Positions 27,770 to 40,680 of a DNA stretch of 41,840 nt are shown here, piece by piece; positions within the stretch are counted from its first letter, which is position 1, and each line of letters starts with the position of its first letter. The stretch spans positions 145,617 through 187,456 of the forward strand of contig NVXE01000005.1 of assembly GCA_002746975.1 (NCBI GenBank), read 5' to 3'. The notes below the pieces were generated by a model. It saw nothing but the letters and a program-made list of their open reading frames with translations, was not told the origin of the DNA and ran no database searches. A program made the position numbers and the translations under genes. Source of the stretch: Bacteroidota bacterium (GTDB lineage: Bacteria > Bacteroidota > Bacteroidia > Flavobacteriales_D > Sanyastnellaceae).

Positions 27770-28582
27770 ATGGGAAAGATTATTGCTATTGCAAACCAGA
27801 AAGGGGGTGTTGGAAAAACTACTACTGCTATTAACCTAGGTGCATGCCTTGGTGTGTTAGAATACAAAACTTTACTTGTAGACTCAGACCCTCAGGCAAA
27901 CGCAACTAGTGGCGTAGGTTTAGACCCTCACACTGTTGAGCATGGGATTTACGAAGTGATTTTGGGGAAGACAAATATTGAAGATTCAATACAAAACACC
28001 ACATCCCCTAACCTTGATATACTTCCTGCTAATTTAGATTTGATAGGTGCTGAGATAGAACTAGTCGATATGGCTCAGCGAGAAAGAAAGCTTTATCATG
28101 AGCTGGAAAAGATTAGAGATAATTACGATTTCATAGTAATTGACTGTTCCCCTAGCTTAGGTCTTGTTACACTGAATGCACTTACAGCAGCTGATTCTGT
28201 TATGATTCCTGTTCAGTGTGAGTATTTCGCACTGGAAGGTTTGGGCAAATTACTTAACACAATAAAAATAGTCCAAACTCAACTCAACCCTCGTCTTGAA
28301 GTAGAGGGTATTCTACTTACTATGTATGATACGCGCCTTCGATTAGCTAATCAAGTTGTTGAAGAGGTTCGAATTCACTTCCAAGACTTAGTACTAAACA
28401 CTGTAATACATAGAAACACAAGACTTGGAGAAGCTCCTAGTTATGGCGAGTCTATAATTCTACACGACGTTACGTGCAAGGGTTCTGTCAACTACCTAAA
28501 TCTAGCTCGAGAAATATTACAACGAAACGAGATGACTAAGCTTAAAGACCAAGACCGACTAATTAAAGATCTAGTAGGTTAA
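27770..28582 (+). CDS. parA: Chromosome partitioning ATPase ParA (Soj)
   Basis: The 270-residue protein starts MGKIIAIANQKGGVGKTTTA, with the deviant Walker A containing the signature lysine K11 and K16. A DSDPQANAT switch (Walker A') and FIVIDCSPSLG (Walker B) follow. Chromosomal ParA/Soj binds DNA as an ATP dimer and, with ParB, segregates the origin region; in several bacteria it also modulates DnaA. There is no N-terminal helix-turn-helix domain, so this is the chromosomal type and not a plasmid autoregulator. parB follows 7 bases later, and dnaA is about 8 kb downstream, which fits an origin-proximal position. Confidence 0.96.
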   Translation: MGKIIAIANQKGGVGKTTTAINLGACLGVLEYKTLLVDSDPQANATSGVGLDPHTVEHGIYEVILGKTNIEDSIQNTTSPNLDILPANLDLIGAEIELVDMAQRERKLYHELEKIRDNYDFIVIDCSPSLGLVTLNALTAADSVMIPVQCEYFALEGLGKLLNTIKIVQTQLNPRLEVEGILLTMYDTRLRLANQVVEEVRIHFQDLVLNTVIHRNTRLGEAPSYGESIILHDVTCKGSVNYLNLAREILQRNEMTKLKDQDRLIKDLVG

Positions 28583-35950: not shown

Positions 35951-36365
35951 CTAATCCATCAGGAGCTCTTCGAGGCTTCCCATTTGAATCTATAAACGCT
36001 AGGGTTACCTGAGCTTCAACTAAGAGATCTTCCTCGTGCATTATTTTAAAATGAAAATCTATCCTAGAAGTAGGAGGCTTCAAAACATGGGTTTCAATAC
36101 GTAATATTTGGTCATATCTCCCGGGCTTTTTATACTTAATCTTAAGATCAATTACAGGTAATAGAATTCCAGCTTCTTCCATTTTTGAATAAACCCACCC
36201 TATTTCTCTCAACGTTTCAACTCTTGCCGACTCTAACATATGAATATACGAACCATGATAAACCATGTCCATCCTATCGGTATCGGCATATTTCACTCTG
36301 TGATGAATGCAAAAGAGTTTTTCTTTACCGTTATTTTTCCAAAAAGATTGAAGAAAATTGTTCAT
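35913..36365 (-). CDS. Acyl-CoA thioesterase (YbgC/FadM-type hotdog)
   Basis: The 150-residue protein has the 4HBT hotdog fold with the catalytic motif YADTDRMDMVYHGSYIHMLE (acidic residue in the ADTD segment), followed by the helix ARVETLREIGW and strands IDLKIKYKKPGRYDQILRIE and VEAQVTLAFIDSNGKPRR. It probably hydrolyses acyl-CoA or 4-hydroxybenzoyl-CoA-like thioesters; the substrate cannot be read. The ATG at 36365 gives a 16-residue extension before the domain. It faces away from dnaA, and its 3' end runs into the S1/P1-like gene. Confidence 0.92.
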   Translation of the reverse strand: MNNFLQSFWKNNGKEKLFCIHHRVKYADTDRMDMVYHGSYIHMLESARVETLREIGWVYSKMEEAGILLPVIDLKIKYKKPGRYDQILRIETHVLKPPTSRIDFHFKIMHEEDLLVEAQVTLAFIDSNGKPRRAPDGLARDLEKNALIHS

Positions 36366-36718
36366 TAAACGAAAATAATCAATAAATTTTAAGAAATATC
36401 GCTCAATGCGAAAAAGCTATTACGCCTCTAATCGTTAAAAGAATCCTCATTAATCACACAACATAAACGCAACCTCTGTATGTATAATATTTTCCATATA
36501 AATGTTAAAATACTGTTTCTCAAACATTGAGGTATCAATCAATAAACCTTTAGAAAATTATAATAAATTATCAAATATGACTCGAAGTAAAATTCGCTAA
36601 AAAACTACTGATTTTAAAAACAAAGATTTTCTAAAAACAATAGGCGTGGCATTTTTTTTTACAAATGTTTTGTCGAACATTGCACTATCTAATCACCAAT
36701 CAAAAAGAATAAGAATTC
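36366..36718. other. AT-rich intergenic region upstream of dnaA
   Basis: This 353-base gap separates the divergent thioesterase and dnaA genes and has no plausible gene. It is very AT-rich, with poly-A and poly-T runs (for example around 36652-36660). I saw no match to TTWTNCACA; the nearest are TTAATCACA (36450-36458) and TTTTCCATA (36490-36498), each with two mismatches from TTATCCACA. The dnaA promoter should be here, but no clear TAnnTTTG element stands out. Its length and composition would also allow a replication origin. Confidence 0.6.
36664..36681. promoter_or_regulatory. Perfect 6-bp inverted repeat close to dnaA
   Basis: AATGTT-TTGTCG-AACATT is a perfect 6-base dyad with a 6-base spacer, 37 bases before the dnaA start codon. 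Its location suits an operator in or near the dnaA promoter. It is short and lies in AT-rich sequence, so chance is a real possibility. Confidence 0.35.
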
Positions 36719-38155
36719 ATGGAAAACGACCACAACAATGTTTGGGCAAATTGCCTTGGTGTCATAAGCGACAACATTAGTGCACAAGCATACAAAACGT
36801 GGTTCGCTCCCATCAAACCGGTGAAGCTAGACGATAGCGTTTTAACGATCCAAGTGCCGTCCCAATTCTTTTACGAATGGCTAGAAGAACATTATGTGTC
36901 TCTTCTTCGCAAGACTGTTCGGAAAGAATTAGGCCCGGACGCTAGATTAGAATACAGCATTATTATGGAGCACTCTCTTGAGGGAAATCAAGCGAGCCCA
37001 TACACAGTAAAGGTTCCTACTTCTCACAGAGCTGCCACGCGCAATCCTGCTGTGAACATGCCTATAGTTGGAGAGCCTGCCCCTATTAAGAATCCTTTCG
37101 TGATTCCGGGACTGAGAAAACTGAAGATTGATTCTAATTTAAATCCTAACTACGCTTTTGACAGCTTTGTCGAAGGAGAGTGTAACCGACTTGCTAGATC
37201 CGCTGGTTTCGCAGTTGCGAATAAACCTGGAGGAACAGCTTTTAATCCTTTATTAATATACGGAGGCGTAGGTCTAGGTAAGACCCACCTTGCACATGCT
37301 ATAGGAATTGAGATTAAAAACCAAACACCAGACAAGACCGTATTATACGTTACATCTGAAAGATTTACTCATCAGTTTATTGACTCTGTTAGAAACAATA
37401 CTGTTAACGACTTCAGTCACTTCTATCAAATGATAGATGTACTTATAATTGACGACGTACAATTCTTTAGTGGAAAGGAAAAGACTCAAGACGTATTCTT
37501 CCATATTTTTAACCACTTACACCAAACAGGCAAGCAGTTAGTTTTAACAGCTGACAAACCGCCTGTTGAGATGCAGGGAATGGAACAGAGATTATTAAGT
37601 CGCTTTAAGTGGGGACTTAGCGCAGACCTACAGACTCCTTCGCTCGAAACTCGTATGGCTATTCTTGAAAAGAAAATGTACGGCGACGGAATCGATATGC
37701 CTCGAGAAGTTGTTGAATACCTTGCCTACAGCATAACAACTAATGTTCGTGAACTAGAAGGTGCGTTAATCTCTCTTATAGCTCAGAGTAGTCTTAACAA
37801 AAAGGCCATCACTCTAGATCTTGCTCGTCAAATGATTGACAAGTTTGTTAAGAACACAGCTCGTGAAGTTAGTATTGATTACATTCAGAAAGTTGTTTGT
37901 GATTACTTCGATCTTCCTATAGAGCTTCTTAAGTCTAAGACTCGTAAGCGGGAGATTGTACAAGCTCGTCAAATAGCAATGTACTTCTCTAAAAAGATGA
38001 CCAAATCTTCTCTTGCGAATATTGGACTTCACTGTGGAGGTAAAGATCATGCAACTGTTCTGCACGCTTGTAGGACGGTAAATAACCTTAGCGAAACTGA
38101 CAAGCATTTCAGAAAATATCTGAACGATCTTGAAAAGAAACTAGCGATTCACTAA
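36719..38155 (+). CDS. dnaA: Chromosomal replication initiator DnaA
   Basis: This 478-residue protein has all four DnaA domains: an N-terminal DnaB/partner-binding domain (NVWANCLGVISDNI, YKTWFAPIKPVKL), a linker at about 90-145, an AAA+ ATPase with Walker A GGVGLGKT (G182-T189) and Walker B LIIDDVQFF (D245, D246), and the C-terminal DNA-binding domain with the signature GGKDHATVLHA (G440 onward). It binds DnaA boxes at the origin and melts DNA to begin replication. The ATG at 36719 fits the family start. A strong terminator follows, so it is probably a single-gene transcript. parAB about 8 kb upstream supports an origin-proximal location. Confidence 0.98.
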   Translation: MENDHNNVWANCLGVISDNISAQAYKTWFAPIKPVKLDDSVLTIQVPSQFFYEWLEEHYVSLLRKTVRKELGPDARLEYSIIMEHSLEGNQASPYTVKVPTSHRAATRNPAVNMPIVGEPAPIKNPFVIPGLRKLKIDSNLNPNYAFDSFVEGECNRLARSAGFAVANKPGGTAFNPLLIYGGVGLGKTHLAHAIGIEIKNQTPDKTVLYVTSERFTHQFIDSVRNNTVNDFSHFYQMIDVLIIDDVQFFSGKEKTQDVFFHIFNHLHQTGKQLVLTADKPPVEMQGMEQRLLSRFKWGLSADLQTPSLETRMAILEKKMYGDGIDMPREVVEYLAYSITTNVRELEGALISLIAQSSLNKKAITLDLARQMIDKFVKNTAREVSIDYIQKVVCDYFDLPIELLKSKTRKREIVQARQIAMYFSKKMTKSSLANIGLHCGGKDHATVLHACRTVNNLSETDKHFRKYLNDLEKKLAIH

Positions 38156-38169
38156 GCATCATACTATTT

Positions 38170-38200
38170 AAAACGGGACCCAAAGAGGTCCCGTTTTTAT
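38170..38200 (+). terminator. Intrinsic terminator downstream of dnaA
   Basis: A perfect 11-base stem AAAACGGGACC / GGTCCCGTTTT with loop CAAAGA lies 15 bases after the dnaA stop and is followed by a T run (CCGTTTTTATTA). It is the clearest intrinsic terminator in the window. It cuts dnaA off from the pseudogene just downstream. Confidence 0.93.
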
Positions 38201-38228
38201 TATCTAAAGTTGTATATCAAATCCCGAA

Positions 38229-38543
38229 TTTAAAATTCTTACTGTATGCTTAGGCAACATATGCCGCTCCCCTATTGCACATGGCTTAGTCGAACACCAC
38301 GCAAAAGATATCGGGATATCGGTAGAAGTGGACTAAGCTGGCACTATAGGAATTCATAGCGGGAATGCTCCTGACCCTATATCGCTTTCAAGAACCGAGG
38401 ATGAGATGCCTAGAGTTAAGATGATAATAAGCGACAAAGACGTGCCAGACCCGTATTATGGAGAGGTCGATGGTTTTAAGGTCGTTTATGATTTGATAAA
38501 TCAGGAAATTCCTAAGTGGCTCAATAGCTTGAAGCAGAAGTAA
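38229..38543 (+). pseudogene. Decayed low-molecular-weight protein tyrosine phosphatase
   Basis: Translating the frame of 38232 gives KILTVCLGNICRSPIAHGLV, the LMW-PTP P-loop (CX5R at C38247-R38265 codons). It continues EHHAKDIGISVEVD, a TAA stop at 38334-38336 where the family has the Ser of DSAGT, then AGTIGIHSGNAPDPISLSRT and DKDVPDPYYGEVDGFKVVYD with the catalytic Asp loop, ending at TAA 38541-38543. No start codon is present: TTT stands where Met would be, and a stop lies at 38205-38207. Some 45-50 residues expected between SLSRT and the VPDPYYG region, including the substrate-lining part, are missing without a frame change. This is about 105 codons against the usual 150. A functional LMW-PTP gene often sits downstream of dnaA in Bacteroidota, so this is probably a resident gene that decayed in place. 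Confidence 0.88.
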
Positions 38544-38545
38544 AC

Positions 38546-39097
38546 TTAATTCTGTCGAACTTGAAGAACGAGTAATGCTCCGGGAGGAACTTTACTCGGT
38601 ACGCCTATAGTCCCGTATGCCATTAATGATGGAACTATCGCTCTAATCGAGTCTCCCCTTCTCAGTTTTGTGGCTAATTCATCGAAGGCTTGTGGCTGAT
38701 TTGAATGCCCCACTACATATTTAAGTGAAGGAATAGTATAACATTCTATACCATTAATTAGTGAAGCTTTAATATTCCAAATAACAGTGTCACCGTACTC
38801 AACTAAACTTGATTCATTACTTTCTTCTTCCTCTAAAATCTTCTCATATACTATCCCTCCAGTTATTTTTTTCGAATTCCACCTCCATGCGATAGAAAGA
38901 GAGTCAATAATGTGAAATTCAGCAACAGAACGAGCGGCATTAAAATCTAGCATAGCATTGCTCAACGATTTTCGTTGTTCTTCAACACTTAAATGGCCAT
39001 TATCCTTACTAGGCTTTGATGAGCAAGAAGCAATCACTACCATTATCGTCAAAGTAATTATGATACTAATAAGTAATGCTGAATTCAACTTCGTCAC
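38546..39097 (-). CDS. FKBP-type peptidyl-prolyl isomerase-like lipoprotein
   Basis: The 183-residue protein has a lipoprotein signal (LTIMVVIASCSS, Cys near residue 25). The C-terminal part resembles the FKBP fold: GDTVIWNIKASLINGIECY, FDELATKLRRGDSIRAIVPS, LMAYGTIGVPSKVPPGALLV. The last segment is the family's AYG...IPPxAxLxFxVxL end. It resembles the GldI-type or periplasmic FKBP lipoproteins of Flavobacteria, which help fold exported proteins. The middle (about 60-95) is weakly conserved and some active-site aromatic residues are not evident, so isomerase activity is uncertain. It overlaps the upstream nrnA gene by ATGA and ends 2 bases from the phosphatase pseudogene. Confidence 0.82.
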   Translation of the reverse strand: MTKLNSALLISIIITLTIMVVIASCSSKPSKDNGHLSVEEQRKSLSNAMLDFNAARSVAEFHIIDSLSIAWRWNSKKITGGIVYEKILEEEESNESSLVEYGDTVIWNIKASLINGIECYTIPSLKYVVGHSNQPQAFDELATKLRRGDSIRAIVPSLMAYGTIGVPSKVPPGALLVLQVRQN

Positions 39098-40134
39098 GGA
39101 GCTGGGTAATTTAATTCTTTTGAATACACAGGCAATAGAGACACTATCTTCTTTAAAACATCCTCAAGAGAATCTTGGGAAGCTCCTCCAGCTGCGTTGT
39201 GATGACCTCCTCCTCCAAAATGTTTTGCAGAAAACTCTCTAGCACTAAATTCACCAACAGATCTAAAGCTCATTTTCACGCGTTCTGATGACTCGTGAAT
39301 AAAAGCTGCAAAATTTACTCCTTCTATACTCAAAGCAGTATTTACTAAGCCTTCTGTATCCCCTTTTTTATATCCAAAACGATTTAACTCTTCAGCTGAA
39401 AGCGAGATGATAGCAGCGTGAAATTCAGGAAAAACCTGAAGCTTTTCGCTTATTGCATATCCTACAAGCTTTAGTTTACCCTCTCTGTTATTATCGTAAA
39501 CTCTTGAATGAATCGCAGAATGATCCATACCCGTTTCTAATAGCGAAGCTGCTATTCTGTGAGTCCTAGGAGTTACTGAAGGAAATCTAAAAGACCCCGT
39601 GTCCGTCATTATTCCACAATAAATACACTCGGCCGTGCTTTTAGAAATCACTCTTGCCTCTCCCCATTTTTCAATCAAACGATAAATCATTTCGCAAGTT
39701 GAACAACTTAAAGAGTCAGAGAACATCATATCAACGAAATCTGAAGGCATTTGATGGTGGTCAACCATAACAGTGAAAGCTCCTGTATTATCAAGAGCAC
39801 TCTGTAAATCCCCTACTCTCGAAGAATCATTGTAATCTAAAACGAAAAGAACCTCAGCTTGGGTTACTAGTTCTTCAGCTAGGTTTGGTTTATCCGAATG
39901 CAGAACAATATCTTCATGCCCATTCATCCAGAAAATAAATTCAGGGTAAGGATCGGGCATAACCACCGTAGAATCAATACCATTCTCTTTGAGATGATTC
40001 CATAAGGCCAAACAAGCACCGACAGCATCTCCATCAGGGCCTCTATGACCAGTTAAGACTATTCGCTTTGAACCCTCCAACTTTGAGCGCAACTCTCGCA
40101 CTCTATCATCTGTAAAAACTTCCATTGACTCCAT
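39094..40134 (-). CDS. nrnA: DHH-family phosphoesterase NrnA-like (nanoRNase / pAp phosphatase)
   Basis: This 346-residue protein has the DHH catalytic domain with GHRGPDGDAVGACLAL, LDYNDSSRVGDL, VMVDHHQMP (the DHH motif) and CGIMTDTGSFRFPSVTPRT. It ends in the DHHA1 domain with FGGGGHHNAAGGA, a full NrnA-type set. NrnA enzymes degrade 2-5-nucleotide RNAs and dephosphorylate 3'-phosphoadenosine 5'-phosphate, using manganese. The first ATG at 40134 is used; a second ATG at 40125 is equally possible. It shares a four-base overlap with the FKBP-like gene and diverges from the DUF6702-like gene, 24 bases away. Confidence 0.92.
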   Translation of the reverse strand: MESMEVFTDDRVRELRSKLEGSKRIVLTGHRGPDGDAVGACLALWNHLKENGIDSTVVMPDPYPEFIFWMNGHEDIVLHSDKPNLAEELVTQAEVLFVLDYNDSSRVGDLQSALDNTGAFTVMVDHHQMPSDFVDMMFSDSLSCSTCEMIYRLIEKWGEARVISKSTAECIYCGIMTDTGSFRFPSVTPRTHRIAASLLETGMDHSAIHSRVYDNNREGKLKLVGYAISEKLQVFPEFHAAIISLSAEELNRFGYKKGDTEGLVNTALSIEGVNFAAFIHESSERVKMSFRSVGEFSAREFSAKHFGGGGHHNAAGGASQDSLEDVLKKIVSLLPVYSKELNYPAP

Positions 40135-40158
40135 GGGATAAATATATACCTTTAACGC

Positions 40159-40680
40159 ATGATTCGAGTACTACTAATGTGCCTGTTTATCGCGAGTTCT
40201 ACTCACGATATTCACTTTACAAAATCTACTATTGACTACAATAAAGAGACTCGTACTCTTCAGATAATAATGAATGTATTCACTGACGACATAGAGTTGG
40301 CTATTGAAAGAAATCACGAGGGTCTTGACTTAGAAATTGGGAGTAAAAACCAACATGAGCTAACCGACTCTTTAGTAAGCGAATACACCTTGAAGCATAT
40401 TCAGTATAAAAACGGAAACAATAATGTAAAGTTTAATTTCATAGGGTTTGAATACGATTATGACATCTGCTATCTATACTTAGAATCCGATACCTTGCCG
40501 AGGTGTATTTCAGATGAAACTACAATTGGAATAGACCTCTTTTTCGATGTCTATGACGATCAAGAAAACGTAACCGATATTAACACTCCTGCTTTAAATG
40601 AAAGTCATATTTTTACTAATAATGACCGTATGATTACAAGAGCTACAGAGTGTAATCACCTAGGAGATGACGAGCGCTAA
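40159..40680 (+). CDS. DUF6702-like secreted protein
   Basis: The 173-residue protein has a short hydrophobic leader (MIRVLLMCLFIASSTHDIHF) and a beta-rich body: KSTIDYNKETRTLQIIMNVF, TDDIELAIERNHEGLDLEIG, then YTLKHIQYKNGNNNVKFNFI and GFEYDYDICYLYLE. This fits DUF6702, a family of unknown function common in Bacteroidota, in which an FTDDxExAL motif follows the first strand. The C-terminus from about 130 is less conserved. It may be periplasmic; no partner is suggested beyond proximity to nth, 12 bases downstream. The family call is by pattern only. Confidence 0.75.
   Translation: MIRVLLMCLFIASSTHDIHFTKSTIDYNKETRTLQIIMNVFTDDIELAIERNHEGLDLEIGSKNQHELTDSLVSEYTLKHIQYKNGNNNVKFNFIGFEYDYDICYLYLESDTLPRCISDETTIGIDLFFDVYDDQENVTDINTPALNESHIFTNNDRMITRATECNHLGDDER

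Follow-up and report, generated by a model that had tools for sequence, protein, structure and literature searches.

Probable recent in-place inactivation of a dnaA-linked low-molecular-weight tyrosine phosphatase gene in a Bacteroidota genome

Introduction

Low-molecular-weight protein tyrosine phosphatases (LMW-PTPs) are defined by two motifs, a P-loop of the form C-x5-R-[ST] towards the N-terminus and, towards the C-terminus, a DPYYG loop, the Asp of which we take to be the general acid, a role known for the family. The bacterial members (PF01451; Wzb/Ltp1/YfkJ type) have in common with the sequence described here both the P-loop, in the form C-x5-R-S, and the DPYYG loop. The thioredoxin-type arsenate reductases (ArsC) form a branch with the same fold.

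A related system has been described in Porphyromonas gingivalis, where, according to the excerpt consulted of a review (PMC8787120), both the LMW-PTP Ltp1 and the PHP phosphatase Php1 have the BY-kinase Ptk1 as a substrate. The genome analysed here likewise encodes a PHP-type phosphatase along with a Wzc-like kinase whose tail is rich in tyrosine, whereas its Ltp1-type member is, very probably, a pseudogene; moreover, Ptk1 and Php1 carry neighbouring gene numbers in the same excerpt (PGN_1524 and PGN_1525), while the two genes found here lie on different contigs (C8 for the kinase, C4 for the PHP gene). A literature search on the dnaA/LMW-PTP neighbourhood, or on a pseudogene of this kind, found nothing relevant: the excerpt of PMC3534657 deals with an ArsC of pfam01451 that is not beside dnaA, and that of PMC7020829 offers general remarks.

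The stretch of DNA analysed (the window, 41,840 nucleotides, positions 145617-187456 of contig C2) belongs to an assembly (G000) of 2.39 Mb in 14 contigs, which is 95.14% complete and 2.53% contaminated. Behind an intact dnaA it carries what can be regarded, with high confidence and on the basis of sequence comparison, as a recently inactivated, in-place pseudogene of a dnaA-linked LMW-PTP gene, the only LMW-PTP-like sequence found in the assembly. This is ordinary recent gene loss, and no new kind of element.

The remnant and its lesions

The features of the locus are collected in Table 1. With an X at the internal stop, the read-through frame scores 64.5 bits against Pfam LMWPc (E 1.6e-17, cut-off 23.2), and both the P-loop near the N-terminus and the DPYYG near the C-terminus are present. 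This score, together with a position identical to that of the intact gene of the congeners, excludes a chance resemblance. The LMW-PTP pseudogene adjoining dnaA described by the first-pass annotation stands in substance, apart from its start and the size of its deletion. The translation also bears out its statement that CLGNICRS and VPDPYYG are intact in one kept frame, and over the 330 nt this frame has two stops (one of them terminal), compared with ten in each of the other two.

Table 1. Positions of dnaA, of the phosphatase remnant behind it and of the remnant's preserved and altered parts, numbered along the window
Feature	Position	Strand	Remarks
dnaA, intact, 478 aa	36719..38155	+	no stops; residues 1-478 are 95-97% identical to those of 9 congener DnaA proteins
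Intrinsic-terminator-like hairpin of dnaA, between dnaA and the LMW-PTP remnant	38170..38197	+	11-pair stem, T-rich tail
Probable LMW-PTP pseudogene, 110 codons with the two stops counted	38214..38543	+	
Start position, ATA	38214..38216	+	ATG in 8/8 intact congeners (alignment)
Preserved P-loop segment TVCLGNICRS	38241..38270	+	
TAA in frame, where the DSAGT motif has its Ser	38334..38336	+	alignment to congeners
Region spanning the junction of the in-frame deletion (43 residues)	38370..38396	+	breakpoint placed to within a few codons
Preserved VPDPYYG loop with the presumed general-acid Asp	38442..38462	+	

Unlike working LMW-PTPs, the remnant has lost its start, carries a TAA between the two motifs and lacks 43 residues of the core. 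Regarding the start, the first-pass annotation had taken TTT at 38229-38231 for the former Met codon; this is ruled out by the alignment to the eight intact congeners, which places the start five codons upstream, at the ATA, and leaves the TTT as an interior codon. The same alignment agrees with the annotation in that the TAA replaces the Ser codon of DSAGT. The frame-keeping loss from the middle was also correctly recognized, but its length had been put too high, at 45-50 residues: the P-loop Cys and the DPY loop are 65 residues apart in the remnant and 108 (six) or 109 (two) in the intact congeners, which corresponds to a deletion of 43 residues (129 nt), or 44 with respect to the latter two. 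The deletion removes the region of the LILAMD strand, present as LILAMD, LILVMD, VILAMD or IILAMD in all eight intact congeners.

As a result, neither a complete core with this strand nor a single frame that opens with a start and runs to about 140-160 aa is found, the sequence comprising 109 letters even when read through. Translation from the old start position, if it occurred, would stop at the TAA after 40 residues. Of the in-frame ATG, GTG and TTG codons, a GTG at 38328 leads to 2 residues and the other five lie beyond the TAA, where the longest ATG-initiated product is a 45-aa tail lacking the P-loop. None of these codons would yield a product containing both the P-loop and DPYYG, and the LILAMD strand is gone; thus, no phosphatase would be expected from the frame as it stands. 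The proposed reading is that the dnaA-linked gene has lost its usual start, gained an internal TAA and suffered the in-frame loss across its core, and that presumably no phosphatase is made.

The gene in congeners and wider relatives

The genus set consists of 14 genomes, with dnaA found in ten; the assemblies of the other four, in which nothing matched dnaA, are incomplete (61-84%). In eight of the nine other congeners with dnaA, an intact LMW-PTP gene of 151-153 aa lies right behind it, whereas in the ninth (G013) the contig ends 83 nt past the dnaA stop, its last bases matching the first 16 residues of a congener's gene, all of which is as expected from the in-place loss downstream of dnaA proposed by the first-pass annotation. 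Residues 6-146 of the 153-residue intact protein of one congener (G001) match LMW-PTPs of known structure (best 4lrq, E 1.2e-31). In a dnaA tree the window's lineage stands apart from three well-supported congener groups, the forks among them lacking resolution, and the nearest dnaA is 83% identical as DNA, so that the intact copies compared come from relatives that are not very close.

A wider sample comprised the best 80 of 400 dnaA loci, several of which come from the same genomes as the congeners. Going by their titles, the named records are mostly Flavobacteriales MAGs, which suggests a flavobacterial lineage for the window. A P-loop was found within 2.5 kb of dnaA in 53 of these 80, and 52 were counted, L108 being left out with its P-loop at 2468 nt, at the edge of the extracted slice. 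The 80 loci are thus divided into 52 with the phosphatase downstream, 22 with none despite at least 700 nt of sequence, five that are too short and one that is uninformative; according to the script used, no ATG precedes the P-loop in eight of the 52. A shortened form conserved in relatives, which would have argued against decay, was seen neither in the eight intact congeners nor in the 52 downstream genes (141-160 aa) of these best 80 of 400 loci. Furthermore, tblastn with the 52 proteins revealed no convincing remnant in the 22 loci of this sample lacking the phosphatase; one hit, of 31.6 bits in L080, is far from dnaA.

Age of the loss

Amino-acid identity between the remnant and its congeners is 0.42-0.59 over 106 shared columns, compared with 0.47-0.60 between the intact congener groups. 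Since most comparisons among congeners approach saturation at silent sites (for the remnant, the lowest estimate of silent divergence from any congener is 1.37, and several estimates are saturated), changes at invariant columns were used instead of dN/dS. Out of 39 columns invariant among the eight intact copies, four are changed in the remnant, two of them mildly (K to R, L to I), and 0-2 in each intact copy treated likewise, a small difference between small counts. In a neutral simulation, the model of which is crude, 0.05 changes per site gave a mean of 4.0 changes and 0.6 stops, while 0.12 changes per site gave four or fewer in 4% of 1000 runs. With so few changes at invariant columns against so large a silent divergence, it looks as if most of the remnant's divergence arose under selection and preceded a late loss, and the first-pass annotation's suggestion of recent decay agrees with this. 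In that case a gene with a conserved location would have been lost late, in one lineage.

Copy number and losses in the family

No second LMW-PTP was found in the window's genome, where the PF01451 matches, even at E up to 10, are the two pieces of the remnant; it is possible that one lies in the missing part of the 95% complete assembly. As 45 of the 51 family genomes that are at least 90% complete have a PF01451 match at E<1e-27, the remnant is of value for annotation, explaining a missing gene where a strong match is the rule. The six genomes without such a match are the window's own, G041 (a partial match, positions 26-143), G051 (a match at 3.2e-21), G061 (a 22-bit partial match), and G045 and G046, which have no LMWPc match at E <= 0.001. 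The dnaA of G061 is cut at a contig start, so that its phosphatase gene may be unassembled and the absence uninformative. Beside dnaA in G046 and G051, and beside the second dnaA piece of G045, tblastn detected no LMW-PTP remnant, and other genes follow. Loss or relocation of the phosphatase is thus uncommon in the family but also occurs outside the window, and this speaks against regarding the latter as special.

PF01451 also gave another type of match, present in six of the 13 other congeners and the sole one in G006; it was considered as a source of extra LMW-PTPs and rejected as ArsC-like, three of the six proteins having been read and one scanned. The three read show a CTGNSCRS P-loop and a different tail, and are not products of the dnaA-linked gene; the G001 protein matched arsC_pI258_fam best, with 142.4 bits, under the cut-off of 174.3. 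No ArsC-like PF01451 match was found in the window's genome.

Tyrosine kinase, PHP phosphatase and tolerance of the loss

A search of the genome for tyrosine kinases led to the Wzc-like kinase, an open frame of 809 aa that scores 168.2 bits with eps_fam (tyrosine autokinase; cut-off 108.05) and has 11 Tyr in its last 50 residues. Its scores for Wzz (24.1 bits, cut-off 25.5) and GNVR (19.5 bits, cut-off 27.7) are both under cut-off, Wzz being over it in six of the 14 genus genomes. The BY-kinase motifs, as defined in the excerpt of PMC8787120, were looked for at two loci, in the window's genome and in G004: in the former, ExxRxxR and [ILVFM]3DxxP are present, while the strict Walker A GxxxxGK[S/T] and [ILVFM]3DxDxR are missing, with HPSEGKS and AMIDLDLH instead, and the G004 homologue departs from them likewise. 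With these two strict motifs missing and the Wzz and GNVR scores under cut-off, activity of the kinase is likely, but not certain. The PHP phosphatase, of the CpsB/CapC type, scores 124.1 bits against a cut-off of 27. The kinase gene is divergent from a cluster (L132, G000:C8:215000-222500) that includes an exosortase-family gene (best XrtX, 143.2 bits, cut-off 170).

The loss may have been tolerated either because the PHP-type phosphatase can serve the Wzc-like kinase or because the substrate of the LMW-PTP matters little in this lineage. The former, in which action of the PHP-type phosphatase on the kinase renders the LMW-PTP redundant, is compatible with the pseudogene reading, and is put forward tentatively, as rather doubtful. 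Both proteins occur in the window's genome, and the sharing of Ptk1 by Ltp1 and Php1 in P. gingivalis, as given in the excerpt of PMC8787120, suggests that a remaining PHP phosphatase could make an LMW-PTP dispensable. Against it stand the two missing strict motifs of the kinase, the separate contigs of the two genes and three congeners (G003, G008 and G012) that have kept the dnaA-linked LMW-PTP, although no kinase in them exceeds the eps_fam cut-off and CpsB/CapC gives no match, as well as G009, in which the LMW-PTP is kept together with CpsB and no kinase is over cut-off. The three form one clade, so that they may represent one evolutionary event, and two of them are only 83-85% complete. 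Nevertheless, the fate of the gene seems not to be tied to the kinase, and its main substrate in the genus may be something else.

That the dnaA-linked LMW-PTP of the genus serves some other conserved phosphoprotein, and not the Wzc-like kinase, would follow the same line; we consider it slightly less likely again than redundancy. The congeners with the gene and without the kinase are, in this respect, a small lead on the target of the dnaA-linked phosphatase. Were it true, the window's genome would offer a natural knock-out in which to look for the true substrate, the gene having just been lost there despite the kinase and the PHP phosphatase.

Assembly error and residual function

What argues against a pseudogene is that the frame and both catalytic motifs are kept, as they would not be in a long-dead gene; the remaining doubt is mainly that of assembly error. 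An assembly or consensus artefact in an organism that has an intact gene is conceivable in a draft of this quality, yet very unlikely, given that substitutions and a frame-keeping deletion make up three distinct lesions within 330 nt, with dnaA full-length against nine congeners on one side and open genes on the other; a triple hit on one gene with the frame kept would presumably be rare.

A functional truncated product (a short C-terminal peptide, stop readthrough or a regulatory RNA), to which the kept frame, P-loop and DPYYG might point, is the least credible alternative and can be set aside given the deleted core strand, the missing start to join the motifs, the longest piece without a P-loop, the short form not seen in the relatives read, the TAA that also ends dnaA and the remnant itself and so makes recoding unlikely, the lack of an Rfam match at gathering cut-offs over 36000-40200, and three promoter-like sites against 1.8 expected, none of them upstream of the frame, in a sigma-70 scan that may be ill suited to Bacteroidota promoters. 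Recoding of TAA, or some wider trouble with this codon across the genome, was also rejected. A ParA-like match listed with one internal TAA corresponds to an intact 270-aa ORF at 27770-28582; the match begins at about 27746, and the TAA is taken as lying upstream of the gene's ATG.

Neighbouring sequences

The hairpin behind dnaA was the one terminator-like site found, against 0.6 expected, and in a separate analysis it had a z of -4.24. In three congeners (L036, L038 and L039, from G001, G002 and G011) the phosphatase ATG comes close behind the dnaA terminator, and in G011 directly on its T-run, so that expression of the congener gene, judging from this arrangement, seems to need readthrough of the terminator or a promoter inside dnaA.

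On the other side, an FKBP-type gene, lipoprotein-like by eye (38546-39097, minus strand), converges on the remnant, the two stop codons being 2 nt apart; a similar gene occupies the same place in G001 and G002. A DHH-family-like gene directly follows the phosphatase in G009 (L037) and apparently in G005. Finally, some record titles in the wider sample call for caution: L049 (PBNL01000037.1) is titled Euryarchaeota archaeon, which looks wrong for a DnaA 95% identical to that of the window, and the title Chryseobacterium gleum, borne by several loci (L089, L100 and others), may be mistaken as well.
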